Part shown: piece after piece, positions 22,689 to 53,600 of the stretch | Position numbering within the stretch: position 1 is the stretch's first letter | How the letters are laid out: the number at the start of each line of letters is the position of its first letter | Source of the DNA: Cafeteria roenbergensis | Lineage: Eukaryota > Sar > Bigyra > Bicosoecida > Cafeteriaceae | NCBI GenBank assembly: GCA_008330645.1 | Contig: VLTN01000002.1 | Span: 496,001-560,000 of the forward strand | DNA length: 64,000 nt | Direction of reading: 5' to 3' | Program-made: the position numbers and the translations under genes | The notes under the pieces: generated by a model | Database searches by the model: none | What the model saw: the letters and a program-made list of their open reading frames with translations, nothing else | Told to the model about the DNA's origin: nothing

Positions 22689-23573
22689 TCCTCGCGGTCC
22701 GCACGCAACGGTGTGCCCTGCAGCCGGACTGTTGGCCGCAGATGGGAGCCCCTTCGGTGTGCTGGGCGCGTCGGCGGCGCCTCAAGTGCGGAGTGCAGAG
22801 CCGAGTTTGCCTTCGCCCAGGCAGCTCTCCGCCCCGGGCACGGCAGCAACAGGCAGCGATCGTGAGGTCAAAGGACTTTGCAAGGGTCGGTCTTGCCCGC
22901 CACGCCTTCACGGGCGCGGCCTTGGTCCGTCCTTGCCCTTTGCTGTTGGAGATGCGTGCGTGCTCTCGGGGCCAAGTCTGCGCATTTTGCCGCTGCGCGC
23001 AGCACGCCAATCCCATGCAGGCGCGCCCGGCGCGCTCTTGCACCGAGCCAATGCCGCGGTAGGCAGGGCGCCGATGCCACACGGGCCGTCAGGGAAGTGT
23101 TTCGCCACGCCTCGCATGCTTGGTGTTCCGTTTCCCCCGCCTGAGGCCCATCTTGCACTGGCGCGCTTCAAATGCTGCATGGATGGAATGCCCGCAGAGC
23201 ACTGCGACACTCCCAACCAGGTCTTGTCCGCCATGCCCTGCTTCATTTGTGCCAGGGGGCTCGCTGAGAGCGAGGCCGACTGAGGCATTCTGTGGGCTCG
23301 AGTGCGCTGGAAAGGCGCGGTCGCCGATGGCGCGGCCCCAAGCCCTTGACCCACCGGAAGCGCCGTGGCGCGTGCTGCGCAAGCAATACTTGCAAGTGGC
23401 AGCGGCAGCTCGAACGTCCTTCGCGCTGGCGACACCGGGCGCGGCGGGGGCCGGCAGAGCAAGTTGCAGCGAGGTCCGTCCTGGACTCCAAACACTCCGT
23501 GCTATCCACCTGCCTTGCCGCGCAGACTGGAAAGGGGAGGGGCCCAAGTCCAAGAGAACCTGGCGCGAACACT
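22689..23573. promoter_or_regulatory. divergent intergenic region, SLD5 / M14-like gene
   Basis: These 885 bp between divergent starts are the longest gene-free stretch here. They must contain both promoters and 5' UTRs. Frames are open on both strands but have no recognisable domain, signal peptide or family motif. A non-coding 5' exon of either gene could be hidden here. Confidence 0.4.
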
Positions 23574-26500
23574 ATGCCGTCTGCCCGCGTCGCGGCCCGG
23601 ACGAGGCTGCGAGGCACTCCCGCCTCGAGGGCCTTTCTCGGCCTGTCGGCTGTTCTTGCCCTCGGCGCATTTCCCGGCTCCCACGGCGCGAGTGTTTTCG
23701 GCCACCGCAACGTCAGCGACGCCCTGGCCCAGTTCGAGGGTCTGCTTGACATGGCCCGCTCGGCAGGGCTGAACGCCTCCAGCCGTCAGCTCGGGACCGT
23801 GACCAGCGCCTTTTGCTTCGGAAGCGCTTGTCCCTCGCTTGCCTCAGAGGACGTTGAGCGCGGCGGTGCTTCCCTCATGATCGCATCGCTCCACCGTGGG
23901 AACGAGCCGATGGCCCTCACGGCCACGCTCGAGGGCGTGCGAGCCCTGCTGGCGGAGGAGCAACATCGGCACCTGTTTGCGTCTCGGACCCTCTGGGTCG
24001 TGCCGGCAGTTGGTGCGCGCGCGTACTCTGTCAACGTGGAGAAGGCAGCCAATGGATCTCTCCAAAGCGACCTCACGGTGCGAAAGGCCCCTGTGACTGC
24101 CAGCAAGGCGGAAGGCGACGCGACTACGCAATGCGAAGACGCTAGCGCAGCCGGCGTTGACCTCGGCAGCAACTACGACACCCAAGTCGACGGCCAGACA
24201 GGCTCGGTCGCGAGCACGGACCCTTGCAGTCCCAACTTTGGCGGCAGCGCCCCGCTCTCGGAGCCCGAGCCGATGGCCGTCGCGGCTCTGGCGACGTCGC
24301 TCCAGCCGGCAGCCCTGCTGGAGGTGGGGGCTTTCGGCGCGGTGGTGCGGACCCCGTTCGCATGGGTGTCTGATCAGTCCACGCAGGGGAACCCGATTGC
24401 CGAGGAGCCAGAGGGCGGCAGGACTGCCTCTCGATGCAGAGCCGTCGGCGCCAGCGCCGTGGCGGCTCTTGACAGCGCGCCGCAGACCGCGGGACAGCCG
24501 GCCCCAGCGCCACACGAGTGGGTCTGGGGGCCGGGCGGAGCGCCCGAGGTCGACCAAAGGCTCATCGGCACTGCCACGGCTGGCGGGCTCGCGGACTGGG
24601 CAGCCGCGAAGCTGGCCATTGCCTCAGCGCAGGTCATGATGGGACCGGTCGCGACGGGAGGGGCGAGCGGGCCGTGTCGCGGCCACTCGCGCGTCGATGG
24701 CTGCCTCTGGCCCGGGGACGACGAGGTCGCAGCCCTCGCGTCCGAAGCCCAGCCGCTCTTTCTGGCCGCGCTCGCAGCAGCGGGGCCGCTTCCGCTCGTC
24801 AGTCTTGTCGCGTCCGAAGTGTCCCAGGCCGACACTGGCGACGATGCCGTCCATGCGAGGAGGTGCACTGCGCAAGTCAACGTCAGTGTTGCTAACGCAG
24901 GCTTAGTTGACGCTGGCCCGGCCTCGCTCCTGTGGATCCCAACCATCAACCAGGAAGAGCCCGCCCCGGAAAATGCTGCCTTTCCGAACTACATCACCGC
25001 GGAAACAAGCATGTGGAGCGCGGGCGAGGCGGCCGGGCTGGCGCGCCAGGTGGACAGCGCGGCTGCAGCCATGCTCGAGCAACAGCTCCTGCCGACAGCG
25101 ACCCCTGGCTCCGTGACCAAGAGCACTCGTCAGCTCTCTCACCAGACCGATCGCCGTCGCACTGCAAGCCTGTTGGATGGTGGTTCCGGCGGCACTGCAA
25201 GTGCGACCGCGACCCCGGCAGGGACTGCCGCTGCAAGTGCGACCGCGACCCCGTCAGCGTCTGTCTCCGCCCGCTGCAAGTGCGACCGCGACCCCGTCAG
25301 CGTCTGTCTCCGCTGCTGCAAGTGCGACCGCGACCCCGTCAGCGTCCGTCTCCGCCCCTGCAGCTGCGATCGAGACCCCGTCAGGGACCGCCCCTGCAGC
25401 TGCGATCGAGACCCCGTCAGGGACCGCCACTGCAAGTGCGACCGCGACCCCGTCAGGGACCGCCACTGCAAGTGCGACCGCGACCCCGTCAGCGTCTGTC
25501 TCCGCCCCTGCAGCTGCGATCGAGACCCCGTCAGGGACCGCCCCTGCAGCTGCGATCGAGACCCCGTCAGGGACCGCCCCTGCAGCTGCGATCGAGACCC
25601 CGTCAGGGACCGCCACTGCAAGTGCGACCGCGACCCCGTCAGGGACCGCCACTGCAAGTGCGACCGCGACCCCGTCAGGGACCGCCACTGCAAGTGCGAC
25701 CGCGACCCCGTCAGGGACCGCCACTGCAAGTGCGACCGCGACCCCGTCAGGGACCGCCTCTGCAACTGCAAGTGCGACCCCGTCAGCGTCTGTCTCCGCC
25801 TCTGCGTCTGCGTCTCCGCTCCCGACGCCGGTGGCGTTCATTACCGGCATGCAGGGGGCGCCTGTGCCGCTGCTGCACGCAGTGGCGTCGGCAGCAACTC
25901 TTTCCGGCATCCTGTCCGCGGCTGCCGCGGAGGCGACACTTCGGCTGGAGAACGGCCTGTGTGCGCTGGACCCGGCCAGCGTCGTTGGCGGGCGCCTCAT
26001 CATTTCGACCAGCGCCGGTTGCGTGGTCGTCGAGGTTCGTCTCTCGAACTCGACCGCGGCGCTCGGGGAGGCTGCGCTTCGGCTGGCGCCCTCAGACCCG
26101 ATTTGCAATGCCGCCGTGCGCCTGGCGCCGCTGCCCGAGCCAATTGCGTCGCCTTCCGCCACGCCCACGAGCGAAGCAACTCCCAGCCCCTCCGCTTCCA
26201 GCTCTCCCACGGCGACGCCTTCGCCACCCACCCCGTCTCCAGATGATGGTGGTGATGCCGATGCGTCTCCCTCACCTCCCGTGTTCTCAGCTTCGCCCAC
26301 GCCCGAGGGCGTGCCTGTGATAGCGTCCGTGTCGCCTGCCGCAGGTGGAGGGAGCGAGGACGCTGGATGGGGGGCTGGGGACTACGTCGTTGCTGCGCTT
26401 GTGGCGGCCACAGTGGTGGGCGCGGCCTTCCTTGGCATGCGCTGGATGAGGCGCGCGCAGGCCGGCGAAGGCTTCATGTTGGTGGGAGCTGACAGCGGCA

Positions 26501-27511: not shown

Positions 27512-30500
27512 CTACCACTTGCTGAAGCCGAGCATCTCCACCCAGGGGGCGGTGCGGAATCCGAGCTCGTTGTAGAAGGCGCCGAACTCGTCAAAGCTGA
27601 TGGCCTGGGGAGGCTCGGCCAGCTCCCGCACGCGCATGGTGCGCAGGAAGGCACTCGATGCGACCTGGCGTCCCTCCACCACGGCCAGGCTCGCCAGGCG
27701 GGAGGCCGAGTGACGCGCCATGCTCGACGAAGCGGCAAAGATGCCGATGAGGAAGTTGGCGAGCACGGCGGCCAGCTCGTCCAGCGACAGGTAGCCGTCC
27801 ATGAGCGCCGAGGTGGTGAAGAAGGCGCTGCGCATCTTGTCCGTCTTGGAGCCGGCGCAGCATACGGTCAGGCAAACGGCGCACGCCGAAGCGTCCAGGC
27901 TGTCCTCCATGGCCAAGGAGCCTTGGTCCTTCTCTGCGGCGCTGGCCTGCAGGAGCTGTAGCATGGCAGAGAAGAGCGTGCTGAACCGGAGATCATCCCC
28001 TCCCCCCTCGCCGTCCGTGGCTGCCTCCCTTCGGACGGACCGAAGCACAGCGCGAAGCCCATCCGGGGCAACGCGGCGCGACGCGTCGGCTGCCTCGAAG
28101 ACCCGCGCGATAAGGTCCCGCGCCGAAGTGCGGCTCAGCCCCGAGCTGGAAGCCGCTGCCCTGAAGTCTGCCCTGTCAGCTTCCGAGAGGTTCACAGTGG
28201 TGGTCAGCTCGGTCTCGCGGCCGACCACGAAAGAGAAAACAGCAGCCGCAGAGCCATCCGCAGAGGCTGCCCCTGCGGCAGCAGCTGCTTCGGCGTGGCT
28301 GGCGCCGTTTCCAGCAAGCGCAGGCGTCGACCTGGACGGGGACGTCATGTCAATCGGTTCCGAGCCGCCCTCGTCCACGTCGCTGGTCTCTTCCGGGCTG
28401 TCGGCGTCGGGAGAGGCGTCCACTTGGGACGCGTCTTCGTCAGAGCGCTCGTCGTCGTCGTCGCCCTCCTCATCCTCATCCTCATAGTCGTCGTCATCGT
28501 CGTCTTCGTCCGTATCCTCGTCGGTCTGTCCCGGCATGTAATCCTCGTCGTCCGGGTCGTCCATATCGTCGTCCTCGTCATCGCCCCCTGCGAGCACGTC
28601 AGGCCACTTCCTCTGGTCCATAAGCTCGAGCCACTGCACCTCCACGTACCCGCCCCCGTTGTACCACTCGCCAAACTGGCCAAAGGTGACGAGTCCGTCC
28701 TCGCCCTGGACGTCCCTGCCCACGGTGGCGGCGATTCGGGAAGACACCGCGTCTGCCAGCTGCTGCACCTCGAAGAACGAGGGGTCTGCGGCGCGGCACG
28801 CGGACGACACGGCACAGATACCCGTCAGCACGCTGGCGAGCAGGGCGGCCAGTTGGTCGGAGTTGAGCCCGGCGTCCTCGTCGGCGTCGCCGCTGGCGGC
28901 AATTGCGCCCCCCGCCGCGTCTGCGGAGGCGAATGCGGTGAAGAGTGCGGCTAGCTTGTCGCTCTTGGAGCCGGCGCAGAAGGGTGCGATCGCGGCCCCA
29001 ACGGCCAGGGCGACCTGGTCGTCCTCGGCCATCGAAGACGCGGCCACAGCATCGGAAAGCCACGCGCACATGCGTGACAGATCCGTAACGCCGTCGCGCC
29101 CAATCACCTGCTCAAAGTCCGAGGCGGGGGCCATGGCCATGAGGGTGCGCTCGAGGTCGGCCGCAAGGACGGCGCCGCTCCCGGCTGCTGCGGCCTCGCG
29201 GGCGGCCTGCATCGCCGACGTCACGTGCAGTCGGTCGAGACCGCTGGAGCGGATGGCACGCTGCACGATCGCGCAGTCGGGGAAGGAAACCACGAGGGTG
29301 GTCAGGAAGCCCTCCCCCGGGGCGTCGGCACGGGGCATGAGGGGCAGCCGGAACACCTCGCCTTTGGTGACAAGCACGTGGTGCGGAGGAGCGGCGCCGT
29401 CCTCGGCGTCGCCCTCGCCCACGTCCTCCGCCTCGCCCTCGACGTCCTCCTCCTCGTCAACGACCACGACGCGGCCCTCGTCCGTGCGAGTCGACTTGGA
29501 GCCCGGAGAGGTGGAGACAGCTCCGGCAGAGGCGCCACCAGGGCGCTCCAGCGGGGCGGGGGGCCACTTGGAGATGTCCAGCAGCTCAAGCCACTGGCCA
29601 ACGGTGTGCCCGCCCTCGTTGTACCACATGCTCAGGGCCTCGAAGGAGAGGGCTGCCGTGTCCTCGTCCTCGTCCTCGTCGGAGGCGTCGCCGGCACCGT
29701 CGGAGCCGCGGGCCTGCGCTGCAAGGGCGCGCTGTGCCAATCCGGCCTCGAGGCCAACCTCAATTGCCAGGTGCGACATCCCCCGCGCAACGGCCGGGTC
29801 CTCGCCGCTGCCCATGCCGCCGTCGACGAGGCGTCGGGCGTCGTCCCCGGCCACGCCGCGAACAGCCAAGAGGCCCTGGATCATGGCGTGGAGCATGGCG
29901 CGCACGCCGACGTGGGACAGGCAGGACATGGGACGGTCGGCCATGCGCTCCGCGGCCATGGAAAACTTGGGACTCTTGGAGCCAGCGCAGAGCGGGAGAA
30001 GCGCGACGGCCAGCTCCTCCGCGGACGGGTCGCTGCCGAACCCGAGGCGAAGCGCGCTCAGCACCTGCGGCAGCGCCGCCGAGAGCCAGGCCCGCTCCTC
30101 AGCAGGGACGCCCGCGTCGGCCGCGCGGCGCGCGAGCGCGGCAGCGAAGGCTGTCACCGGGCTCTCCCGGCCACTGGCGCTGTCGAATGCCGAGCGCACG
30201 ACGGCAAAGAGCTCAGAAGGACTGCAGCGCGCCAGCGTTGAGGCCCGAGCAAGGCGGTCAGCGAAGACGGTGTGGCGGCCGGCGAAGGCCGCGACGGGGG
30301 TGAGCGCTTCATCCCGACCAGCGGGCACGAGGACGTGAATCGTGTGCTCTCCCGGTCGGAGGGACTGCACCCGCTCCAGGGCGTTGCGCGACGGCATGGC
30401 GGCCTCCTCCGCCTCCTCCGCCTCGTCGGGCCGCCGGCCGCCGGCCGACGCATCGTCGAACTCGGCCGAGACGTCCACGTCTTCCTCGTCGTCGCTGCCG

Positions 30501-33500
30501 CTGTCGGGCTCGCGCAGCATGGCCACCTGGCGGTCGTCCTGCAGAGGCCACTTGGACTGGTCAAGCAGCTCGATCCAGGGGACGAGGTTGTGGCCGCCGC
30601 TGTTGTACCAGGTGCCAAACTCCTGGAAGTCGATGCTTCCGTCGCGGTTCAGGTCCGCCGCGGCAAACACTGTGCCCGCAACCTTGGCCGCCTCGCGGCT
30701 GGCCGCGGTGCGCGTGGCTTCGTCCAGAGGTGCGGTTCCCGAGCGCAGAAGGGTGATGAGCGAGAGGAGGAAGGCGCGCACGTAGAGGGCGAGCTCTACG
30801 CGGCTGATGCGACCGTCGCCGTTGGCGTCGAAGAGGCGGAAGGCGAGGGCCAGCTTGTCGCTCTTGGAGCCCGCGCAAAGGATGCTGAATCCTGCAGCGA
30901 ACTCGGCAAAGTCCACGCGCCCGTCGAGGCTTGTGTCGAACGCCGCGAAGATGGAGCCGACGTAGGAGCGCACGGCAGCGGCGTCCTCGTCGGTCAGGGA
31001 GCTGCGCGGCACCACGCGCTCCATCACGCGAGCAAAGCCAGCCTCGTCGAGCGTGCGGCTGGCCTCGTCCGCCTCGGCGTCGAACAGCGTGTGCAGGGTG
31101 TCCGGGTCAAGGACGCGCAGGCGCGAGGCCGACGTGATGCGGCGAAGCTGCCTGGCGTCGCGGGCGGTGAGCTCTACTCGGAGCGGTGCGCCGTCAGCAG
31201 AGTCGGCCCCGCCCGGAAGGTCGAAGCCAAGCATCACCGTATCGTTGGACACGGCGCCCTCAGCGTCGTCCTCGTCGTCTGCAGCGCTGCTGGAGCCAGT
31301 GCCTGCCGAGGGCGCAGCGGCAGCGGCAGCGTCTGCGGCCGAGGCGGCGGCGGCACCACCGCTGCTGGGCTGCGGGGCCGAGTCCGCGAAGACGCCCCAC
31401 TTGCCGGTGGAGAGCATCTCCATCCACGGCACGAGCTCGTGGCCGCCGCTGTTGTACCACTCGCCGAATTCGGCAAACGAGATGAGCCCGTCCTTGTTGG
31501 TGTCTGCCTGCTCCAGGATCTTGCTGGCGAGGTCAGCCGCCATTTGGCGGGCAACCCGGCGGCGGGCTGACGCCTCCTCTGCGCTGAGGCGCGCCATGCC
31601 GGACCCGGCGGCGCCCCCGAATGAGATGAGGGCCGCAACGAACGAGGAGAGGTATTGCTCGAGCTCGGCGTGGGTGATGAATCCGTCGCCGTCGATGTCG
31701 AAGAGACGGAATGCGAGCACGAGCTTGTCGCTCTTGGAGCCCGAGCACAGCACGCTGAAGCCCGCGGCGAACTCTGCAAAGTCCACGGTACCCGACGCGT
31801 CCTCGTCAAAAACGTCAAACATGCGCTCAAGGCCGGAGCGGAGCTGCACGAGGGTCTCGGCCGGGATCGCGCCGGGGTCCACGAACGAGGACAGCGCCTC
31901 TGCGAATCCCTCGCGGTCCAGCTCTCCGCTGCTGTTCACGCGCTTGTTGAACGCCTCCAGGACTGCTTCGGGGTCTGCCGCATCGAGTCTTGCCTCGCGA
32001 ACGATGGTGGACATGCCTGCGACGTCGTGGGCAGACAGCGCCACAACGTTTCCCCCTGCCATCACGCGGAAGCCAAAGACGGCGTCGCGGCTGGCCGAGG
32101 CGCGCATGGAGCGAACCTGTTCCGTGCCCTCGCCGGCAGCACCGTCGCCCTCGCTTTCGTCCTCGTCCTCGTAGTCGCCACCCGCCTCTTCGTTCTCGTC
32201 GTCTTGGTCGTCGTCGGCGGCTTCGCTGTCGGCGTCTTCCTCAGGGCCCGCACCATCGCTGCCGTCCTGGTCGCTGCCCGCGTCGCCAGTGTCGTCGTCG
32301 TCGTCTTCTTCGTCGCCTTCGTCGACATCGTCAGCTTCCGGATCTCCAACAAACGCTGCCACCGAAGGAGACCATTTGCGAAGGTCAAGCATCTCGACCC
32401 AGCTCTCCGACTTGAAGCCGCCGGCGTTGTACCAGTTGCCAAAATCGATAAAGGACGCACTGCGCCCCGAGCCCGCATGCGCAAACACGCGGTGTGCAAC
32501 GCGCTTGGCCACGATCTCGCTCGTGGCAGCTACCGAGGCAGGCTCCGCATTTGCCGCCTGCTCCGTGAGGCCGAGCAGCGCGGCGACGAAGCCGCGAATC
32601 ACAAGCTTGAGCGAGTCACGAGTCACGAACGACGGGTTCTCATCGTCGCGGGTTGCCGGGTGCACGCCGGCCGTGGAGCCTTCCATGACGGCGGCAGCCT
32701 CGAAGGCTGACGCAATCTTCCCGCTCTTGCTGCCTCCAGCGAGCAGCGTGAGGGCGGCAGCGGCAGAGGCCGCCGGGACGCTGTCGTCGCCGTGCGGGTC
32801 CACGGCATACCACACCCGCCAAATGAGGCGCTGGGCCATCTCCACGCGCGCGGCAGGCACCCGTGCGGGCGACAGGAGCTCCCGCATGCACTTGATGAAG
32901 CCGTCGCGGGAGAGCGAGTTGTCGGGGCCAGCGTGGGCCACGACTGCCTTGCAAATGTCCCACGGGTCCACGAAGGCGATTCCTGTGACGGCGAGCGCGT
33001 CCTCCACGGCGGCCACGTCGCCCTCGGTGAGAAGGAACCAGCGGATCCCGGGGGCCGGCTGCTGGCCCGTCAGCCACTGCTGGTCGCCGTCTTCAAGGAG
33101 CTCGATGGAGGCGGACACGGCCGCGTCCGCGTCCTCCTCGGCGTCACCATCTCCAGCGTCAGCATCGCCAGCGGCCTCGTCGGCATCGCTTCCAGCCACG
33201 TCGGGCACGGCGCCGCGCCCTGTGGGCCGCCTGGGAGACGCATCAAGCGAGTCGAGGTCGGGCCACTTGGTCAGGTCAAGCAGCTCAACCCAACGCGCCT
33301 GCGAGGCGCCGCCCTCATTGTACCAGTCCGCGAAGTCGTCAAAGGCGACCGATCCGGAGCCGGAGGCAGTGCCGTTGCTCTGCCCCCAGGAGGCGGACCC
33401 CTCGCCGCTGAACTCCAGGATGCTGTCCGCAACGGAAATGGCCGCCACGTCGATCTCATCCCGCAAGGCTGCGGCATGTGCTGCGGTCAGCGCCGTCTCC

Positions 33501-36500
33501 TCGAGGAACGGGGCAACGCACAGCACGCCAAGCAGCGAGCGGAGCAGCTGCCACAGCCCGAGCTTGGCCAGGCGCCCCGTGGCGCTTCCGCTGAACGCCG
33601 CCCACGCGGCCGTGAGCTTCTCCGTCTTGCTGCCGCTGGCAAAGAGCGTGAGCGCAGCAGCGAGCTCCGGGGCAGACGCCCTGCCCGTGCTCTCGCGGTC
33701 CATGAAGCTGAAGAGCCGCTCCAGGCAGCCTGCGAGCCACTCCTGGCCTTCGTCGTCGTCGCGCGGGAGCACGGCCGCAAGAACGGTGCGCTCAAAGTCG
33801 GAGCGGGTCAGAGACGACCGCTGCGCCGACGCGGCGGACAGGACGAGGGTCACAATGTCGTCGGCAACGAGGCTGTCCATGCGAGCCGTGGACACGATGC
33901 GGGCCACAACGGCGCAGTCGGCGAGGGTGAGGCGCAGCTTGGAGGAGTCCACGAGCCCGCCGCAGCGAACGGCCACAGCGGCCACAGCTGCTTGAAGCGC
34001 CTCCGGGCGCCGGAGGAGGGGAAAGTCAAAGGCAGGCGTCTCCCAGCGCTGCGCGGGGCTGAGCCTTGCCTCGTCGTCCTCGTCGGCGTCGTCCTCGTCG
34101 GCGTCTTCGTCCCCAGCATCCTCCTCGTCCTCGTCCTCGTCCTCGTCTTCGGCGTCTGCCTTGGGGCGACTGGCCGAGAAGGCGGCGCGGCCCACGTAGG
34201 GAGCAGCGACGGTGGCCGACGCAGCAGTGCGCGAGTCGTCGAATCCGAGGCGGCGGCGGGCCACCGTGGCGGCAGCTACCGAAGGTGGCGACCACTTGGA
34301 GAGGTCAAGGAGCTCCAGCCACGCAGCTGGCTCGAAGCCGCCGGAATTGTACCACTGGCCGAACTGGGCGAACGTGATGCGAGACACCTTGGGGACGCCT
34401 TCGACCCGAGCAACGCTCTCAAACACGGCGATGGTTGCCTCCACCGCAACCCGCCGGACAACGGTGCGGCGGTCCGACGGGGACAGAGGGTCCGAGCCGG
34501 CCTGGACGAAGCCAAGCGTGAGCAGGTAGGAGCGGAAGAAGAGCCACAGCTGCATGTGGTCCAGCGAGCCGTCGCCCCCCTCGTCAAGGACGTCAAAGGC
34601 GAGCGCCATCTTGACGCTCTTGGAGCCGCCGCAGAAGAGGGAGAGGCCGACGATGAGCTCCGCAGTCTCTGCCTGGTCAGTGCCGGTCCAGTCGAACCAG
34701 CTGAACAGAGCGCGCAAAGCAGCGCGCCCGACGCGAAGCGCCTGCCCCTCGCAGCCGCTGCCGCGCAGCAGAGCCTCCATCGCCTGCGAGAAGGAGAGCT
34801 TCGAGATGGACGTGGTCGCCGACGAGTTCGACGCGGCAGCCGCCCGCTGCAGGATGAGCAGGTCGGTCGCCGGGCGCGTGGACATGCCTGCCGACGCGGC
34901 CACGGCGTGGAGGAAGTCGCAGTCGGCACGGGTGAGCTCCAGCACGTCCCCGGCCTCGGACACAACGAAGGAGTAAACGAGCGCCTCGTCCTCGTCGTCC
35001 TCGCCGTCGTCGTGGTCCGCCCCGTCCTCGCCAACATCGCCGGCGGTGTACTCCTCGTCCAGGCCCTGTGCCTGGGAGCTTCGAGCGCCTGGGGCAGCGG
35101 GCGGAGCGCGAGCGGACGGCGCCGGTACAGACGCCTCGGTGCTGCTCGGGCCCTCGACGCCAAGCTGCTGGCGTGCGCGTGCGCGCGTGGCTTCGTCCTC
35201 AGGGATGGGCGGGAGCTCGAGGCTGCCAGCCGAGGTGGGCCACTTGGTGTGGTCCAGCAGCTCCATCCAGACCGCGCCCTCCGCGTGGCCGCGCTCGTTG
35301 TACCACCGCGCGAAGCGAGTGAATGCGATGACGGATTGGTCTTCGCGGTCGCGCGTCTCGTCAAAGAGGCGGGACACCGTGTCCACCGCCCCGGACTCGA
35401 TGACGTGGCGCATCTCCACGACGGACGTGAAGACGTGGTCGCGGCAGAGCGAGGCCAGCCCCGTCAGCAAGGAGCTGATGCACTCCCATGCCAGGCCGCG
35501 GGTGAGGCCAGGGGCGCTGCGCGAGCCCTCGAAGAGGGTCCAGGCGACATCCAGCTTGCAAGACTTGGACCCACCGGCAAGGGCCAGCATGCCGGTGGCC
35601 AGGTGGGTCGCGTCTGCCTCGTCGCGCCTGAACTTATCGAACGAGTAGAAGACAGTTGCAAGCAGGGCCCCGGCACGACGGCGCTCGTCCGCGCGAAGGC
35701 TGGACACGTCGACCAGGCGCTTGGCGAGGTGGTCGAACCCCGCGCGGGTGATGACGCCGCCGTGGCTCTCGCTCATGACCGCAGCGGCCATCTCGGCAGG
35801 CGTGAAGCGATGAAGGCCCGTCAGACTGAGGAGCAGCGCCACACGGCCAATGTCGGAAGCGCGGCCCACGAGCTCGCTGCTGCGCCCGAGGTCGAAGCGG
35901 AATGCGATCGGGTCCTGGGAGTTGTCGTCCTCTGCGCTATCCTCGCTTGAGCCTTCCGAGGGGGGCGCAGCAACGCGGCTCTCGCTCAGGCTCGCAGCTG
36001 CCGCCAAGTTGCCCGCGCGCGATGGCAGGCGCGGCGGGGGCACCGCTGCCCTGGGCGCGTCGGAAGCGGCAGGAGCGGCCGCGGACGGCTCGCCGGCGGC
36101 GCGAAGCCACTTGTTCAGGTCCAGGAGCTCGAGCCACGGGCACTTGCCCCGGCCCTCCTCGTTGAACCAGCCAGCAAACTGCTGGAACGTGACGCGGCCG
36201 TTGCGATCGCCCACAGCCTCCGCGGCCGCGCGAACCACGTCCGCGGCAGCGTCGTCGATGCGGGCACGCTTCTCCTCCACGTCCTCGTCGTCGGTGCGCG
36301 ACGCCACTGCGCCGAACGCGGACAGGAGGGCGCGGAGGATGCGCCACAGCTCCGTGCGGGTCACGGCGCCGCTGGCCACCTTGCTCATCACGCTGAAGGA
36401 GTCCACGAGCTTGTCGCTCTTGTTGCCCGCGCACAGCAGCGAGAACCCGACGAGCACGTCCGGGAGCTGGGCAACGCCGTCTCCCGGGCGGTCGAAAGCG

Positions 36501-37856
36501 TCGAAGAAACGCGTGAGGAAGGCGGTGATGCGGCGCGTGTCCGCGCCCTGCACGGCCTGGGTGGGCACAAGGGAGCGCACCGCGGCGTAGAAGGCTTTGC
36601 GCGACAGAATACCCTCCGGCGAGCTGTGCGCCCGCAAGGCGGCGTCTGCTTCGGGGAAGGGCTTCGCCGCCAGCCCGGTCACGTTCACCGCGTAGCGCAG
36701 CTCCGCGATATCCTCTGCAGAGAACTCCAGCCCTCCAGCGTCCTCGCCTCCGGAGAAGTTGATTCGCAACACGCGATCAGACGCGGCGGCCTTTCCCGCG
36801 GCAGCGCCGGCCGCGGCGGCCCGCCGCCGGCCGTCCTCGCTGTCGCTATCATCCCCGATGCTCTCGTCCTCGCTATCATCCCCGATGCTCTCGTCCTCGC
36901 TCTCAGACGCGGAGTCGGCTGCGCAGCGGGGCAAGGGAGGGGGGGGGAGCAGGCAGCGTGCCACGCGGAGGTTTGCACCGGCAAGCGCAGGAGGGCTTCG
37001 CGGCGAGACACGGCACCAGCAGCGGAGGGACGAATGCAACGAGCGCGCGACGCGCCAGCACACCTGGGCCACCGGCAGGCGGCACATGGGGGCGGGGCGA
37101 GCGGGGGGGCGGGGGCTCACAGAGCAGCACCAGGGAGAAGGACTGGCCCGCAATGTTGCCAAACGACTTGGCTGCGTCCGCGACCGACATGAGCAGCCCG
37201 TCGCTCTCCCGCTCCAGCCCGACCACTCGCTGGCCGTCCGGGATCCCATCAAAGAGGCGCCGGCAGACGTTGTTGAAGGCGTCGTCAGCTGCGAGGCGCC
37301 GGGGCAGGCGGGGGAGCCAAGCAGGGCAGCGGCGGATTTGCAACAGCCTGGTCGGCGCCAAGCACGCGCTCCGCGCGGCCAGCAGGATCACCCCGGAGGC
37401 GCCCGGCCCGGCCCAGGCTGCCCCCCCAACGCAGCGGGCGCCGCTCGGAGGAGAGTCCGCCCCCGCCGGGCCTGCCCTTCGCCGCGAGCGCGGGCGGGCG
37501 TTTCCAATTGCGAGCCTGCTGATCTTTGCAGTGTCGCCCTGTGAGATGGTCAGACCGGCCGAGGGCGGCCTCTTCGCCGTGCACCGCCGCCACCCCTCCC
37601 CGCCCCTCCCCGCACCGCAACCCTCGAGGCTGGGGGGCGCCCGAACGCTGGGGGCGGGCGCGCTCTCGGGCTAGGGCCGGCTCGCGCGGGCGGAAGGGGA
37701 GAAGGCGCGCGGCCCTCGCCGTTGATGCCATCCGGCAGCCGCCCGAGGCCGCGACCCTGTCTGAGGCGCGTGCTGCCGACACTCACTGGTTTCCGAAGAA
37801 ATGGCAACGAACTGGGGCTCTCCGTCCCCCAGGCGGCACCGGATGGCCGCGGCCAT
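27512..37856 (-). CDS. giant EF-hand protein: ten tandem ~300-residue calcium-sensor-like modules
   Basis: Three exons (37787-37856, 37121-37288, 27512-36918) give 3214 residues; introns are 37289-37786 (gtgagt/tcgcag) and 36919-37120 (gtgagc/gcgcag). The phases close, and exon 1-2 form a short beta-grasp-like N-terminus (FVAISSET|TDDAFNNV). A Ser/Asp/Glu-rich stretch follows, then ten modules ending near residues 330, 620, 935, 1280, 1575, 1900, 2185, 2510, 2830 and 3192. Each has a beta-strand header, about four helix-loop-helix units, an invariant G-(S/N)-K-(S/T)-x-K motif (for example CAGSKSDKL) and a closing block of the type FGEWYNSGGHxxxPWxELLDxxKW. Only modules 6 and 7 keep three canonical EF loops each (for example DIDGDGFITHAE, DTNKDGLISFAE). 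Linkers are very acidic. It is probably a calcium-regulated scaffold; no named family is known to me. Confidence 0.8.
30540..32095 (-). other. modules 6 and 7 of the EF-hand giant: the calcium-competent pair
   Basis: In these two adjacent modules EF loops 2, 3 and 4 have Asp at position 1, Asp/Asn/Ser at 3 and 5, Gly at 6, a hydrophobic at 8 and Glu at 12. Visible loops are DEDASGTVDFAE, DIDGDGFITHAE and DTNKDGLISFAE in module 6, and DTSLDGRVDFAE, DANGDGRISRVE and DLNRDGSIDFQE in module 7. The other eight modules lack most ligands. Confidence 0.8.
36844..36897 (-). repeat. 27-bp perfect tandem duplication in the EF-hand giant
   Basis: Two identical in-frame copies encode EDESIGDDS twice, just after the beta-grasp-like N-terminus. 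The S-x-x-D/E composition would suit casein kinase 2 phosphorylation; that is inference. Confidence 0.8.
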
Positions 37857-38003
37857 GGCTCCTTCTCTCAGGCAAGGCCGCCGTCCGGAGTGGGCAGAGA
37901 GGCCGCTGCAGAGCACGCGGGAATCCACGTTCGGCCGGGATGCCGAAGCCGGCAGGCGCACCGCTTGCGAGCAGCCGGCTCGCAGCACACGATCCGCACA
38001 GCC
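37857..38003. promoter_or_regulatory. bidirectional promoter region, EF-hand giant / ankyrin-TPR gene
   Basis: Only 147 bp separate the two divergent start codons. GC-rich, no TATA box. This is the shortest divergent spacer in the window. Confidence 0.5.
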
Positions 38004-39740
38004 ATGGCCGCCGGCGGGGCATCTCAATCCGTGGACCCGGCTGTTCTGCGCGAGCAGAAGGAGCGCCTTCTCGCCTTCTTCACGGCCGCCAAGGGTGAGT
38101 CGCGGGCGAGGATGCAGAGCCCCGTCGCTTCCGCGCTTGCGCACGGAGCCCGACGCCGCCGCGGCCGGCCAGCAGGCGCAGGTGCGACTGACAGGTGTTT
38201 CTCGTGGTCGGTCCTCTCCTGCGCAGATGGCGACGAGCGCGCGCTGAAGGTCTCTTTGGAGTCCTTTGAGGCGGCCCGCGACGGCGGCGCCAAGGCTGCC
38301 GTTCTCGGCATGCGCGACGCCCACAGGCGTACGGCCTTGCACTTTGCCGCGAACCAGGGCCACAGCGGGTGCATCCGGATCATGCTCGAGCACTGCAAGG
38401 ACGCTGCCAACGCGGCAGACGAGGACGGCGCCACGCCGCTGATCATGGCTGTGCTTGGGCGGGCGCCCGGCGCCATCGACTGCGTGGAGACCCTCATCGA
38501 GTTCGGGGCGGACGTGAACGCGAGGAGGGAGCGGGAGATGGACACCGCGCTCCACATCGCCTCCCGAAACGGCTTCATGCCGGCGGTGGAGCGCTTGCTC
38601 GCCGCCAGCGCGGACCCGACGCTGCACTCCGTCGTCGGAACGGCGCTGCACGAGGCTGCAGCGGAGGGCGAGACGGCGGCCGTGAACGCAATCATCAAGT
38701 CCGTGGGATCCCACCCCGCGTGGCTGTCCGTGCCCGGCCCGCGCTCCGCGACGCCTCTCCTGCTTGCCGCAACGGCTGGCCACGAGGACGCCAGCGTCGC
38801 TCTCATCCGCGCCGGCAGCCCCGTCGCGGCGCATGCCACCAAGGGCGAGACTGCCCTGCACATCTTTGCTGACAACGGCCACCACGGCGCCGTTGCCGCG
38901 GCGCTGGAGCACGCCAAGGACGCCGAGGCGGCGGCGCGCAAGCCGGACGACGCCGGCCTGCTGCCCGTGCAGAGGGCGCTGCTCAAGGGTCACTCCAGCG
39001 TGGCAGAGCTCCTGTGGGGCGCCAGTAAGGACTCGTGCGACGCCGAGTCGCTGGACTCGCTCTCGGCGGCGACCAGTGCGGCCGCGGTCCCCTCTGGGGC
39101 AGGCGCAGCGGGGGACTCGGCATCCGCGGCGGCAGCGGCAGCGTCCGGGGCCGAAGATGCCAAGGCTGCAGCGGTATCGGCTCGCGAGCAGGCCGCTTGC
39201 GCAACCGTGGAAGAGGAGGCCAAGGCCGCGGACGCCTTCGAGAACGACGGCTCGGCGACGGCGGAGGCCGACGCAGAGGCCGCACTTGCCAAAAAGGCAG
39301 AGGGAAACGCCGCCTTTGGGAAGAAGCAGTACTCCAAGGCGGAGGGCGCCTACTCTGAAGGGGTGGCCCTGGACCCGCGCAACGCGGCGCTGCGCATGAA
39401 CCGGTCGGCGGCGCGCCTGCGCCAGGGCAACAACCTGGGCGCCCTGGCCGACGCCGTCATGGCCCGCAAGCTGGACGCCACGCTGGCCAAGGCCTACTTC
39501 CGCGAGGGCAGCGCCCGCATGGCGCTGAGGCAGTGGGAGGAGGCGGCCAACGTCTTCTTCGACGGGCTCAAGCTCAGCGACGTCCCCGAGATGCGGGACG
39601 GCTTCCAGGAGGCCGTTCGGCGCGGCAAGGCGGACCACGCCAAGCTGGAGAAGGCCAAGCTGGCGCAGGAAGAGGAGATTCGCGTCGAGGCGGTGCGCGC
39701 CGAGAAGCGGCTCCGCAGGGCCCTCGAGCGCAAGGCGTGA
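38004..39740 (+). CDS. ankyrin-repeat / TPR co-chaperone-like protein
   Basis: Two exons (38004-38094, 38227-39740) give 534 residues; the phase-1 intron at 38095-38226 is gtgagt/gcgcag and restores AAK|DGDERALK. Residues 60-320 contain about six ankyrin repeats (DAHRRTALHFAANQGHSG, DGATPLIMAV, MDTALHIASRNG, GETALHIFADNGHHG). After an Ala/Glu-rich linker, residues 415-515 form a three-repeat TPR. All five carboxylate-clamp positions used by Hsp70/Hsp90-binding TPRs are present: K and N in KAEGN, N in RMNRSA, K and R in KAYFREG. A charged helical C-terminus follows (KLEKAKLAQEEEI). Binding to an EEVD chaperone tail is therefore likely; the client specificity of the ankyrin part is unknown. Confidence 0.85.
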   Translation: MAAGGASQSVDPAVLREQKERLLAFFTAAKGESRARMQSPVASALAHGARRRRGRPAGAGATDRCFSWSVLSCADGDERALKVSLESFEAARDGGAKAAVLGMRDAHRRTALHFAANQGHSGCIRIMLEHCKDAANAADEDGATPLIMAVLGRAPGAIDCVETLIEFGADVNARREREMDTALHIASRNGFMPAVERLLAASADPTLHSVVGTALHEAAAEGETAAVNAIIKSVGSHPAWLSVPGPRSATPLLLAATAGHEDASVALIRAGSPVAAHATKGETALHIFADNGHHGAVAAALEHAKDAEAAARKPDDAGLLPVQRALLKGHSSVAELLWGASKDSCDAESLDSLSAATSAAAVPSGAGAAGDSASAAAAAASGAEDAKAAAVSAREQAACATVEEEAKAADAFENDGSATAEADAEAALAKKAEGNAAFGKKQYSKAEGAYSEGVALDPRNAALRMNRSAARLRQGNNLGALADAVMARKLDATLAKAYFREGSARMALRQWEEAANVFFDGLKLSDVPEMRDGFQEAVRRGKADHAKLEKAKLAQEEEIRVEAVRAEKRLRRALERKA

Positions 39741-40022: not shown

Positions 40023-40852
40023 TCAGTTGATGGCAAGGAGCTCCACCTCGAAGATGAGGTCGGCGTTGGGGGGGATGACGCCACCGGCGCCGCGGGCACC
40101 GTAGCCGAAGTCCGCTGCGAGAGGGGGTTGGCGGGCAAGCGGGCCGGGCGGGCAAAGAGCTCGCATCAGACAACGCGCAGCGGCAAGGATCGGGCTGCGT
40201 AGCCAGCGGCCTGCAAGCGAGCCGAGCGCAAGCGGCCAAGGAGGCTCTCACAGGTGATCTCGAGCTTGGCGGTCTCGCCGAGGCTCATCTGGGTGACGCC
40301 CTCGTCCCAGCCGCGGATGACCTGGCCGACGCCGATCTGCGAGGTGGGTGAGGGCATTGTGCAAACGGCGCGAGCCAAGGTGGCAAGGGCCTCGCAACTC
40401 CCGAACGACGCGGGTTGCCGGCCAGCGAGCGCTGGTCTCGTCTTTGAGCTCACCGTGAACTTGAACGGGGTGCCGCGGTCCTTGCTGGAGTCGAACTTGG
40501 CGCCGGAGGTGAGGGTGCCGGTGTAGTGCATGGTCAGCTTGTCGCCGGCCTTGGGGAAGGTCGAGCCGTCTGCGAAGGACTCGGGGGCAGGGGCGGGCAA
40601 GGGCAGCTACGCTCGCCTAGCGCCGCAGCCACTGCCACGGCCAGCGCGCTCGCGAGCCAGCCGCATGGGCGGAGGGACTCGCCAGCTTGGCTTTGCAAGC
40701 AGTGTTTTTTTTTTCTTTCTCGCCTCGGCTCGCAGCGGCTAGGAACAGCCGCAGGTCGGCGGGCCTCTGTTCGCGCTGGCAAGCCGCTGCGGCCGCCACG
40801 GGGCGGCCAGAAGCTCACCGCCGGCCTTGATCGTGGTCTTCTTGACACCCAT
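40023..40852 (-). CDS. FKBP1A: FKBP12-type peptidyl-prolyl cis-trans isomerase
   Basis: Four exons (40819-40852, 40454-40569, 40252-40336, 40023-40114) give 108 residues, exactly the size of FKBP12. Introns are 40570-40818, 40337-40453 and 40115-40251, all gtgag donors with tcgcag acceptors. The first exon codes only [11 protein letters not shown]. Active-site and FK506-pocket positions are conserved: [33 protein letters not shown] and IFEVELL. It is a cytosolic prolyl isomerase; in other eukaryotes it regulates calcium channels and, with rapamycin, TOR. A T-rich run on the plus strand lies in the largest intron, near 40700-40720. Confidence 0.95.
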
Positions 40853-46869: not shown

Positions 46870-49800
46870 TCAGTCAAGCGGGGGGGTGCGGCCCTCGTGC
46901 ACCTCGCCGGTGACTGCATTGACCCACACCACGACGCCGTCGCGCTTCGCCTCTTCACCCCCGCTTGGCTCTTCGGAGGTGCGTTCCCAGTGGCCCGCTC
47001 CTGCCGCCCGGCCGCTCCGCGCGTCTCGGGGCGCGGAGGGAGGGCCGTCGGCAATGAGAGGCGCGTCGAACAGCGCCCGTGCGTTTGCTGCCTCCTCGGC
47101 GCGCTGCCGCTTGCGAAGAGCAAACTCCATCCCTGGGGGGGGGGCAGGGCGCCATCCGGCCTTGCCGCGGCCCGTGGCCATCCTGCCGGCGAACTTGCGC
47201 CTCTTGGGGCTTGCAGTGGCCTGCGCTGAGTCGGCCAGCGAATCCAGCGCGTAGTTCCAGGCGCTTCCCTCCTCCGTGAGCAGCGGGGACTCCTCGTGCC
47301 GGGCCGCGTGACGGCGCGTCACGGCGCCAATGGCAACCATGGTGGCAGGGCGCCGGTCCCAGCGGGGCGCCGACCACCTGGACTCGCCGGTTGTGCGGTT
47401 GAACCAGAACTGCTCCTCGTCGCTCCCAGGGGGCGCCTCGTGCTCCTCCCACTCTCGCGGGTCGGCCCCGTGAAGCAGCGGCGGACGCCCCTTTGGCGGG
47501 CACACGGCGGCCGCCTGGTCCTGCCCGTCCCGCCACCGGCTTGCTTCCGAGTCGTCGGGCGCGAAGGACCGCGCTGCCAGCCGCTCGAATCCGCGGCCGT
47601 CGAGGCGGCGCCTCCACCCCTGCGGCCCAGGGCGAGGGGCGCGCCCCCGCCACAAGCCGGCGAGCTCGCAGCCCCCCCCAGAAACGACGCCAAAGCCAGT
47701 CACGATCCCGCAGGCGCGCAGGCCCTCCCAGTCAGCCACCAGCGTGGGTCGAGTCCACGCCGAGACCCCCGATTCCGCGTGGAACCAGTACCTGGCCATG
47801 GGCTCCTCTCCCGGCGGGGCTGGCTCCGGGTCGACGCGCATCCACCCGCTCAGAGGCCCCTGCTGGGCGGCCGCCCGCCGGAGCACAGCAAGCGCGTCGC
47901 GGGTGCGGTAGCCGCGCCAGACCCGCTGGATGAGCAAGGCGCGGTCGCCGCTGGCGGCGTTGAGCATGCGGGCCGCCACTTCCTTCGCCTCGGCCGTGGC
48001 GCGCTTTTCAAGCATGCGTCGGAAGGCCTCGTGTCCGTCGTAGTCCCGTCCTCCGCGCTCCTGCAGCGCGAAGGTGAAGACCTCCACAAGTCCGCGGCGC
48101 GTCGGCGCGAGGTCCATAGCCCGCAGGAAGAGCGGCTCCGCGGCGTCGACCTGCCCGTGGACGAACGTCAGAACCAGCGCCATGCCCAGCAGCGCTTCCG
48201 GGTCGTCCGGGCGGCGCCGTAGGGCCTCGGCGAAGAAGCCCCTCTCCGCGTCGGCGAATGACTCGCCTCCCTTGGCGATGTCAGCGCGCCTGGCCCGCTG
48301 CGCGAGGGCCTCAATCACCTCCATGCTCTCCCCCATGGTTGCCGCGAGCAGCAGGCAGAAGCCGTAGAGGATGAGAGGGTGGTCGGGGCCGCGGCGAGCC
48401 ATGTGGTCCACAAGACCCAGGTACAGCGGCCTCGCGCGTTCCAGCGAGCGCCCCACCGTCTGGCACCACAAAGCGTAGTTCATGCGCGCAACCACGCTCT
48501 TCGGGCTGTCGAGGTAGGCAGCCTCGGCCCCCTCCATCTTCTCCACGGCCCTGCGGCGCGCTCGCTCCTCGCGCAGGCGCACAGCCTGCTTGTAGTACCA
48601 CTGCACCGTGCGGGCCGCAGTGTCCTCCTCGTCCGTCCAGCCGCGCCTCAGCAGCTGGTCCAGCGCCAGCGACTGACGCCGCTCGGCCCGCAACCACGCC
48701 CGTGGCTGGCCGATGCGGCCCTCGCCGTCCGCCCAGCGCCTGTGGAGCGGCCCGGCAGGCGGGCTGGCTGGCGCACGACCAGCAGCTCCCGCCGACGCCG
48801 CGGAGGCCGCGGTGGCCGCGGCAGCGGAGCCTCCAGCCGCCGTCTCGCCGCCAGCCCCCGACAGCACCGCGGCCGCGGCGCGCTCCGCGGACGCGCTGGC
48901 TGCCGCGCGGGCGTCGTCACGCACAAGCCCGTCGAAGAGAGCGTCCTCCTGCTCCGCAGACAACTCGCGGAAGCGCGGCTCGTAGGCGCGACCGAACCGC
49001 ACCGCGGTGGCCTCGGCCCCCTCGCCCGCCCGCCAGTCGCGCCAGCGCAGGTACACGCGCGCCGCGTCGCCGGGAACGGCGCCAAGCGCAGCGCGGGGCA
49101 AGCGAGGCAGGTGGCCTTCTTCCAGGTCGCCCGCGGCCGCGGACCCCGCCGTGCTTGGCCGGCCGTCTGCCCTTGAGAGCGGCCGGTGCTGGCCGGCGAG
49201 GACGTCGTCCTGGTCGGTCACGTCCTCGCCCTGGCCATCCTGGGCCCGCCACGACAGCGAACGTCCCATTTGCAGGCCGGTGCCCAGGCGTCGCCGCGGC
49301 CCGGCCTCTCCCGAGGCGGCGCGGTCGAGCTCAACGGTCCACACTGAGTCAGACGACCCGTGTTCCACAAGGGGCGACAGAGCCCCCGTGAGGTCGACAG
49401 AGCCGCTCGGCTGCCGTCCGGCCACGGCTCGTGTGTCCCCGCCGCGAGGCTCCTTGCGCTCCGTCTTGGCGGAGGCGATCGCCGCTTGGAGACCTGCCCA
49501 GTCGCGGCCGGAGGCGTGACGCAAGCTCGGCGGCGGCACCACAGCGAACTCCAGCCAGCCTCTCCACCGCCGCAGCGGCGGCCAAAACGCCGATGCCATG
49601 GCGCGCCAGTGCGCGGTGTCCCCCGGAGGCGCCCAGAGCATCTGTCGCGCCCTGGCCGTGTTGGCGAGCCTGCGCCCGCAGAAGCCCCTCCAGACCCGCT
49701 GGATGCTGAGGGAGCCCCATGCCACCGCCTGCTCCTCCCACTCCATGAACCACAGCCGGCGGCCCAGCAGCCCGCGCCACACGCGCTGGATGTCCGTCGC

Positions 49801-50597
49801 AGCGCGCCGCGCCCGGCGCCGGCGCTGAGCCTCCCGCCTCCCCAGCCAGCCCCTCACGACTCGCTGCGCTTCCACGGCCGCCACTCGGAGCACGCGGATG
49901 CTGCGGAGGGCCCGCAGCGCCCTGCCGCGCCGGAACCCGGCCTGGATGCGCCTGGCCGCCGCAATGCGCGTCCTCGCCTCCGCGACCTCCGCCGCAAGGT
50001 CGCGCTGCTCAGCTGCGTAGTCGGCAACGGCCTCCTCCCCGACCTCGTCCCGGAGAGGGTCCCGCCGCCGCCGCAGCTCCACCCGGCTGGGAAGCGCGTC
50101 CGTGCCCCCGCGCTTCCTGGCCTGCGCCCTGCCCTCGCCCTTGGCAGCGAGCCTTGCCGCGGCTGTCGCCTCCGGGTCCCGCAGAGCCACGCGGCCAGTG
50201 GAAGGGTCCCGCCACACCACGCGCGCGCGGTCCGGGTCGAACACGGCCTCCCACCCGCCACCAAGCTCCGCCGGGCGATTGGCCCGCGACTCTCCAGTCG
50301 CCCTGTTGAACCAGTACTCGGAGCCGTCGCCGAGGCGGTGGCGCCGCTCCCACGCCATAGCCTCGCCCTCCTTGGTGATCGACGACAGCCCCGGCCGCGC
50401 GCTCCGCGGCGAGGAGGTGGCGGCGTCAGCGTCTCGCCGGCCGGACCTGACCCCTCCGTGTGCCGCACGGGCCGCGCCAGACACTGGCTGCAGCCCCCCA
50501 CCAGGCGCTGCGCCGTCATCGTCCCTGCCGCCGCCGCCGCTGGCGCCCCCTCCGTCATCGGCAGAAGCACCCGGGTCCGTGCTGGCAGCAGCGATCG

Positions 50598-50636
<39 letters not shown>

Positions 50637-53600
50637 TCGCCGGCGCCCCCCACGCGGCCGACGCGGCCGGCTGCGAAGCCTGCAAGCCGCCACCCACGCC
50701 CTTGCCGCCGCCATCGTCGTCCGAGTCGCTGAGTGGCTCGGCCTCGCCGTCGCTGTCGCTGCCGGGGAGCGGCTCTTCCGTCCACCGCGTCACAGCCTTG
50801 CCCAGGCGGGTGCCAATCTTTGCGACCCGTTGAGGCCGCTTAGGCCAGGACCGAAGCACAGGAGCCGCCGCCGAGGCCCGCGCCGCATCGGCATCAGCGC
50901 TGCCGCTGGCCTCGTCGCCCCGCTGCGACGGCGCGGAGCCGGCCGGGGCATTGCGCCGGCCGGCCGGCGAGACCGAAGCAGGAGCCTCTTCGAGGCCTGG
51001 AGGAGCTCCACCGCCGCGGCCCCTGGCTGGAGCGTAGCTCGCAGTGTACTCGTCCTCCGGCCTGCTGGAGAGCAGGGCATCGCCTTGCTCAGCGGCGGAC
51101 TCCCCTCCGGCCGTGCCGACCCACCCGAGCGACGCGCCCCACGCCCGAGGACGCTGCTGCGCCTCGCCGTCGCCGCCGGCGCCCTGCGCGTTCTGGCTGC
51201 GCTCCGTTGCCTTGCGCGCGGAGGTTGGCTCCAGCGCCAGCGGGGTGCCGTCGGGGGCGACGAGCGCCGCTCCCGAGGACGAGGCAAACGGGTCCGGCGG
51301 CCCGCTGATCGTGGCTGCCCAACCAGTCTCAAGGCTCCGAGCCGCGGCTTGGCGCTTGGCCTCGGCCTGGGCGTCCTGCTCTGCGAGCTGCTGGCCCAGC
51401 TCCGCCTCCTCGCGGGAGAGCACCTCCAGGCGGCGCACGGCCCTGCCGGCCGCGTCCAGCTCCACCTGCACGAACTCCTCCAAGAGCAGCGCCTCCGCGC
51501 CGCGCTGGCCGTGCACCCTGGCCTCGCCGAGGGCAGAGCGGTGGGCAAAGTTCTTGAGGTTGGGGTCGCACTCGTGCCGGAACAGCTCCCGCAGGCAGTC
51601 GAGCCGGCCGAGCGCGCAGCAAACGTGGATGGACGTGTCGCCGTGGCTGTTGCGGTCGTTGGGCGTGGCGCCGTGCGCAAGCATCGCAGCCACGGCGTGC
51701 GGCTGGTCCGCCCGGCAGGCCGCATGGAGCGGGGTGTCGCCGGCCAGGTCCCTCGCCCTCACGTCTGCGTCCGCCTCAAACAGCAGCGCGATGGCCGCAG
51801 CTCTGCCGGTCTCTGCAGCCACGTGCAGGGCCGTTCTGCCTCGCGTGTCGAGCACGCCCGTGTCTGCGCCCCGGGCAAGAAGCACCGTTACGACGGCGTC
51901 AAAGGAGGCGCTCGCGCCGGCACCGGCCACCAGGGGCGACGAATCGCGCTTCTGGGCCGCGGCCGTTGCGGGGGGGCTCTGGTTGGGGGACGGGAGGGGC
52001 GCGCCGCCGCCTTCGACCGGGGGCTCGTCCGCCGGCCCCGCGCAAGCCAGGTGCAGCGGTGTGAGGCCGTCGCCGCGGCGCGGGGACACAGCAGCGCTCC
52101 CCTCGTCGATGAGAAGGGCGGCGATGTCGGCGTGGCCGATGGCCGCGGCGTGGTGGAGCGGCGTGCAGGCGTCGGCGTCGCGCGCGACCGTGGATGCCGG
52201 GTAGGTCCAGCGAAGCATCACCTCCACGACGCCGGTGCTGCCGGCAGCAGCGGCCACGTGAAGCGGCGATCGGCGGTGCGAGTCCACGGCCTCGAGGTCC
52301 GCCCTCTGGTTCAGCAGCACGCTGACCAGCCCAGTCCAGCCCTGCTCCGCAGCGACGTGCAAGGCCCGCCTGCCCTGCGCGTCCGCGGCGTCAGGGTCGG
52401 CCCCGCGCGTGATGAGGTACTCGCAGAGCTCCTCGCGCTTGGGGTACGGCCGGGCTGCGCACAAGAGGTGCAGGGCGGTGCGGCCCTCGCGCGGCTCCCG
52501 CGCGTTGGAGTCCGCCCCCCAGCGAAGCAGCAGCTTCAGGACGCGCCGGCGCCCGTGAAGGGCCGCCCGCATCACGGCCGTGTAGCCCGCGCGGTCCGTC
52601 GCGCTGGCTGCCCAAGCGCCCCACGCCTCGAGGGTTCGCCTCACGGAGGTGAAGTCTCCGCGCTCCACGGCGGAAAGCAGCGCCTCTTGCTGCATCCACC
52701 GCACGTCGCGCCGCACCGCGAAGCCCCTCCATGCCGCTTGCACCCTCCTCGCCGCGCGGAACCGCCTGCGCAGCCTGCGCGCAACTGCCCTCGCCATGGC
52801 CCCGCGCCACACTCGCTGGATCAGCTTTGCAGCGCGGACCCGCCGCACAATGCGCTGGTATCGGAGCCGGGCCCACGCGGAACGCCACCACGCCTGCATG
52901 GAGCGAGCCGCGGCGCTTTGCTGAACCAGCCTCCTGGCCGCCACCAGAGCGCGGCGCCGGCGCACAGCGCGCTGCATCGCCGTGGCCGCCACCAGCCTCG
53001 CGGCGGCCGCAGCCTCCACCCACCGCCGCCACCCGACGAGCCTCTCCCGCAGGCCGGAGGTCATGACGCGGCGGGCCATGCGGCGAGCTGCGCGGCGCGC
53101 CTTGACGCGCTCCTTCCACGAGAGCACGGCGCGCCACGCGCCCCTGAGCACGATGCGGCGGCCCATTGCGCGGGCACGCTCCGTCCTCTGCCTGGCCGCT
53201 TCCAGCACGGCGCACGCCAGGCGGCGCTCCTTGCGCCGGCGCCAGAGGCGCTGCACGCGGGCCGCGCACCGGTTTTGCAGCACCACAGTGCGAACGCCGC
53301 GGCCGCGCCACAGGGACTGGCACCACTGGGCGACGCGCAGGCGCGCTTCGTCCGCCCGCCGGTGCCAGTCTGTCCAGGCGGCCAGCGCGCGGGCTGCAGG
53401 CCGCTTGGCCATCCTGGCGGCTGCCTGGCGAGCGGCTCTGGCGGCCGCAGCCTTGGTCGCCAGGCCCTCAAAGGCCGCTCGCAGGCTCCGCTGCAAGATG
53501 CGGCGAAGCACCGTTCGACTCCCGGCCTGCTGTCCGGCCAGGACGGTTGCCAGGGCACGCGCTGCCCTGACTGCTGCAGCCTTGCGCCACCACCGCTGCA

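Follow-up and report, generated by a model that had tools for sequence, protein, structure and literature searches.

A predicted giant protein of ten tandem EF-hand modules in Cafeteria roenbergensis, with complete calcium loops in two modules

The stretch of DNA analysed here (the window) comprises 64,000 nucleotides from the bicosoecid Cafeteria roenbergensis (assembly GCA_008330645.1, contig VLTN01000002.1, positions 496,001 to 560,000 of the forward strand). On its minus strand, from 37856 to 27512, lies a three-exon gene for a giant EF-hand protein of 3214 residues (3215 codons including the stop). The exon junctions were predicted by eye from splice signals and frame (donors GTGAGT and GTGAGC, acceptors CAG); in window positions, the exons are:

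37787 to 37856, minus strand: exon 1, carrying the ATG and the start of an N-terminal domain of about 80 residues (splice signals and frame by eye)
37121 to 37288, minus strand: exon 2, the remainder of the N-terminal domain, by eye a small beta/alpha domain
27512 to 36918, minus strand: exon 3, an open frame with the ten modules and the stop codon

Exon 3 is a single open frame of 9.4 kb. The GC content of the window is 67–77% per 2 kb, and long open reading frames (ORFs) are also present opposite the gene strand. That the gene might be a spurious ORF of a GC-rich genome is ruled out by its EF-hand matches (E about 1e-34) and its ten homologous modules. The predicted product starts with MAAAIR, and its N-terminal domain, which precedes the module array, gave no Pfam match at E<=1 and only weak, unrelated matches in the PDB (best E 0.03); a second copy was looked for in the genome and not found. 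Between 37857 and 38003, the gene diverges from a plus-strand ankyrin-repeat gene (ORF 37722–39740, likely ATG near 38004), and the distance of about 150 bases between the two start codons suggests a shared promoter.

The modules, trimmed to 224–263 residues before alignment, are as follows:

36107 to 36778, minus strand: module 1, residues 127–350, no complete calcium loop
35240 to 35914, minus strand: module 2, residues 415–639, no complete calcium loop
34292 to 34990, minus strand: module 3, residues 723–955, no complete calcium loop; AlphaFold predicted local distance difference test (pLDDT) 91.5
33263 to 34009, minus strand: module 4, residues 1050–1298, no complete calcium loop
32372 to 33121, minus strand: module 5, residues 1346–1595, no complete calcium loop
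31397 to 32089, minus strand: module 6, residues 1690–1920, three complete EF loops; AlphaFold pLDDT 88.9
30548 to 31246, minus strand: module 7, residues 1971–2203, three complete EF loops
29564 to 30352, minus strand: module 8, residues 2269–2531, no complete calcium loop
28604 to 29365, minus strand: module 9, residues 2598–2851, no complete calcium loop
27515 to 28249, minus strand: module 10, residues 2970–3214, no complete calcium loop

Module ends fall at residues 350, 639, 955, 1298, 1595, 1920, 2203, 2531, 2851 and 3214, a spacing of 283–363 residues. When the modules were compared with each other by BLASTP (ten-sequence database, no low-complexity masking), 44 of the 45 pairs matched with E <2e-5, the exception being modules 4 and 5 (E 0.24); in five of the nine pairs involving module 8, only the last 28–30 residues, the C-terminal block, were aligned. 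These comparisons, the spacing and a profile alignment confirm the ten homologous modules described in an earlier note on this DNA. Ten alignment columns are invariant: the G and both K of G-x-K-x-x-K, a Phe in EF4, the Asn and Gly of the WYN block, the Trp and Glu of W-x-E, and a final Lys-Trp. G-[SN]-K-[ST]-x-K is present in every module, as the note had stated. Its claim of a closing block common to all copies holds for W-x-E-[LM] (10 of 10); WYN is found in eight modules (module 1 has WFN and module 10 FYN) and the full WYNxGG in seven, modules 1, 2 and 10 retaining the second G only. The closing K-W, absent from the note's list, is present in all ten.

Complete calcium loops occur at only six of the 40 EF positions, and these are EF2–EF4 of modules 6 and 7:

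31772 to 31807, minus strand: module 6 EF2 loop, DEDASGTVDFAE, found by sequence patterns
31664 to 31699, minus strand: module 6 EF3 loop, DIDGDGFITHAE, found by sequence patterns
31469 to 31504, minus strand: module 6 EF4 loop, DTNKDGLISFAE, found by sequence patterns
30902 to 30937, minus strand: module 7 EF2 loop, DTSLDGRVDFAE, found by five-position scoring (stricter patterns miss this loop)
30794 to 30829, minus strand: module 7 EF3 loop, DANGDGRISRVE, found by sequence patterns
30620 to 30655, minus strand: module 7 EF4 loop, DLNRDGSIDFQE, found by sequence patterns

The EF1 loop is incomplete in all ten modules. The restriction of the six canonical loops to modules 6 and 7 was thus correctly noted before, but the accompanying claim that the ligands are lost everywhere else needs a small correction at EF2 of modules 1, 3 and 4. 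There, loss of calcium binding is likely, but weak binding may still occur, because four of the five scored positions are retained. For six complete loops placed randomly among the 30 EF2–EF4 positions, the probability of filling exactly two modules would be 45/593775, or about 8e-5, by simple post hoc arithmetic.

From EF2 to the end, modules 6 and 7 are 51–70% identical, except in the connector before EF4 (36%). A recent duplication is not favored as the source of this likeness, since identity over the header and EF1 is only 26% (other pairs have a mean of 19% and a maximum of 30%); retained calcium binding would be the simpler reason. In a tree of the modules (20 rows), end branches are 1.12–2.05 for the modules without complete loops vs. 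0.37 for module 6 and 0.70 for module 7. The tree is weak, with none of its 17 inner branches starred and the bootstrap not settled, and its clustering of the eight modules that lack complete loops (support 86/80) may be due to long-branch attraction.

The same eight modules are 22–29% identical to module 6. Among them, 17 columns are held in seven or eight of the eight: one is an Asp near the start of the header helix, four belong to GSKxxK, and 12 are in EF4 and the C-terminal block. Five polar residues (the two Lys of GxKxxK, the Asn, the Glu and the last Lys) are kept in all eight. The polar columns argue against featureless spacers and for a clasp formed within the molecule or a site for a shared partner, and they support the earlier suggestion that selection acts on something beyond calcium in these modules.

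What kind of domain is the module? The whole protein scores over the Pfam cut-off for EF-hand_1, _5, _6, _7 and _8, which places it in the EF-hand superfamily. When nine single modules (all but module 7) were scanned, module 6 alone exceeded the cut-off; sub-threshold EF-hand matches were seen in modules 1, 3, 4 and 10, and no EF-hand match in modules 2, 5, 8 and 9. A profile of all ten modules matched calcineurin B, neuronal calcium sensor (NCS) proteins, NOX5 and dystrobrevin in the PDB, and when the profile was restricted to the eight modules that lack complete loops, the matches to calcineurin B (6.3e-7), NOX5 (1.3e-5) and dystrobrevin (4e-5) persisted. AlphaFold models of modules 6 and 3 have identical elements in identical order and match dystrophin and NCS-1 structures; as far as two modeled modules out of ten and the ten-module profile alignment can tell, the units share one fold, as previously proposed. 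In both models, G-x-K-x-x-K connects the helices of EF2 and EF3 and corresponds to the inter-lobe linker. In sequence alignments, GSKSDK falls opposite GDKEQK/GNKEEK of calcineurin B, GSPMDK of NOX5 and GELNDK of NCS-1; dystrobrevin has GKIMDK at this place. The G and the last K are thus old, while the first K, kept in all ten copies, is a peculiarity of the giant protein. Profiles and models identify the module as a four-EF-hand domain of an already known type, that of neuronal calcium sensors, calcineurin B and dystrophin. The idea that module and signature were new is not borne out; the domain falls into a named superfamily. What remains unusual is the ten-fold array, along with the C-terminal clasp.

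NCS proteins are N-myristoylated at an N-terminal Met-Gly and have a dead EF1 and complete EF2–EF4. Modules 6 and 7, two of the ten, reproduce this loop pattern, but the giant protein has no Met-Gly start, and NCS-1 and recoverin are single small proteins of about 200 residues, whereas here there are ten domains in 3214 residues and an added K-W clasp. Calcineurin B and the regulatory EF domain of NOX5 are among the best profile matches, over EF2–EF3 and the linker, but each is a single EF domain; calcineurin B, moreover, has four complete loops, while no module has a complete EF1. No catalytic domain was found in the whole-protein Pfam scan. Dystrophin or dystrobrevin gives the best VIA match for both module models, which have the closed two-lobe EF fold and a helix after EF4, and the dystrophin sequence F-L-D-W...V-W-L-P-V-L resembles F-x-x-W-Y-N...W-x-E-L of the module. 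The EF region of dystrophin probably retains its closed two-lobe form in the absence of calcium. Dystrophin has this region once, with a ZZ domain after it, in contrast to the ten copies here. The region has been described as a compact cluster of four EF-hand motifs (PMC1790709). Whole-protein Pfam scans at E<=1 yielded neither EF-hand_2 or EF-hand_3 nor a ZZ domain. Genome searches with EF-hand_2 and EF-hand_3 gave no candidate, a weak negative with the EF-hand_2 control silent and the EF-hand_3 control once below cut-off, and the sequence link of the module to dystrophin itself was no better than shuffles. Membership in the dystrophin family is not assigned, for want of EF-hand_2, EF-hand_3 or ZZ matches and with the dystrophin link at shuffle level.

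What could ten such domains in one chain be for? Building on what has been demonstrated, namely module homology, loop status, and the fold predicted for two modules along with the structures it matches, we infer a giant scaffold in which eight fixed-shape pseudo-sensor modules surround two NCS-like sensors, a reading to which a probability of roughly one half may be assigned. The protein would consist of ten tandem four-EF-hand domains on flexible, mostly acidic linkers behind the small N-terminal domain, and it would probably be cytosolic. The two most hydrophobic stretches, starting at residues 2769 and 3128, lie in EF3 helices of modules 9 and 10. Modules 6 and 7, with their NCS pattern, should bind calcium. 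The other eight would hold a closed two-lobe shape without calcium and act as fixed docking or spacing units. N-x-x-G...W-x-E-[LM]...K-W, which probably forms the end of EF4 and a short C-terminal helix, may combine with G-x-K-x-x-K into a clasp of header, linker and C-terminal helix, or into a shared site for a partner. An effect of calcium on shape or partner binding would then be confined to the central part of the array. There is a precedent for docking, in that the EF hands of dystrophin and its WW domain form the beta-dystroglycan site, according to PMC10789850. A more ambitious version, offered tentatively and with some doubt, is a new class of protist scaffolds in which a sensor domain has been multiplied ten-fold, with eight copies turned into calcium-independent docking modules sharing one conserved clasp or ligand site around two working sensors; the action of a calcium pulse would be limited to the center of the array.

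The eight modules might instead be folded beads drifting without a partner in a passive spacer or elastic string, with specific function in modules 6 and 7 only. Their fast divergence, seen in the long end branches, and their low identity to module 6 speak for this, but five polar residues kept in eight of eight modules exceed the needs of a bare hydrophobic core, and the unbroken frame of exon 3 also counts against it; on balance, this explanation is somewhat unlikely. Alternatively, the protein could be an axonemal scaffold at the doublet microtubule, where regular spacing would be combined with calcium-sensitive stiffness. Its counterpart would be EFCAB6, which likewise has multiple EF-hand motifs in one chain (PMC8595878) and which is a ciliary inner-junction protein; a flagellar role of this sort must be considered improbable. 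Still less probable, indeed quite remote, is a calcium buffer, with calcium stored by the acidic linkers and the six EF loops and the modules serving only to carry them. The protein does have a net charge of -276, and all nine inter-module linkers (47–118 residues) are net negative, those between modules 5 and 6 and between 9 and 10 containing 44% and 42% Asp/Glu (no other exceeds 40%), but 34 of the 40 EF loops are incomplete, which is not what one would expect of a buffer.

A single domain of this type is ordinary in itself. To our knowledge, loss of calcium with retention of the fold has been seen in EF-hand domains only singly, dystrophin being an example. The scaffold proposed here, with eight copies lacking complete loops and two calcium-competent ones in one chain, would allow the requirements of the fold and the contribution of calcium to be compared within one protein, and if the clasp were indeed a shared ligand site, the array would be a ten-valent docking platform. 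The parts are familiar, while the ten-module layout was not encountered in the literature searched, a result that does not extend to protist proteomes. Literature searches with the motif letters of the module, or for giant or degenerate EF-hand proteins of stramenopiles, found nothing, and the layout is absent from the titles and opening lines of abstracts on giant or repeated EF-hand proteins of protists, oomycete and stramenopile EF architectures, EFCAB6, and Cafeteria EF-hand proteins. Some oomycete proteins may carry a similar W-x-E-L-L-D-x-x-K-W module.

No relative was confirmed among 24, 11 and 3 pattern-matched stretches of viral contigs or among 39 stretches in each of two scans of prokaryote genome contigs, all weak negatives that hinge on one or two short peptide patterns. 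A phage collection queried with module 6 only likewise yielded no confirmed relative, and BFVD gave no match at E<=0.001. A second WYN...W gene was not seen in the Cafeteria genome with modules 6 and 3 (two of ten) as queries, and a loose pattern found no WYN...W outside the giant gene in the genome loci examined. Genome-wide, a WYN...W DNA pattern gave four matches, all in the giant gene, but it detects only four of the gene's own ten modules, and short or intron-split copies could escape such searches.

The same genome holds at least two further multi-module EF giants. One is a sister ORF of 2648 residues on contig C60 (19569–27515). Six of its matches to the module are good and several more are weak; a strict pattern finds nine complete EF loops in it, but the WYN...W block is missing. 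An upstream frame (from 18681) contains two more EF loops by eye. The other, an ORF of 1921 residues in a frame from 365848 on contig C17, matches the module clearly three times and weakly some further times, and five of its EF loops are complete. Among these giants, the protein in the window stands out by its small number of loops and its clasp.

Other frames accompany the gene in the window. A giant minus-strand ORF of 3534 residues (46870–57474) is rich in ankyrin repeats and gives a WW-domain match below threshold, and opposite it runs a plus-strand ORF of 2619 residues with no Pfam match at E<=1e-4. Also on the minus strand are a frame with a CLP1-type P-loop domain (7338–10301), one of the CLPTM1 family (57795–60062) and one of the tubulin-tyrosine-ligase family (60874–63753). 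The window further holds a plus-strand frame with an M14 zinc carboxypeptidase domain (23292–26243) and a minus-strand frame with an FKBP domain (40169–40600).
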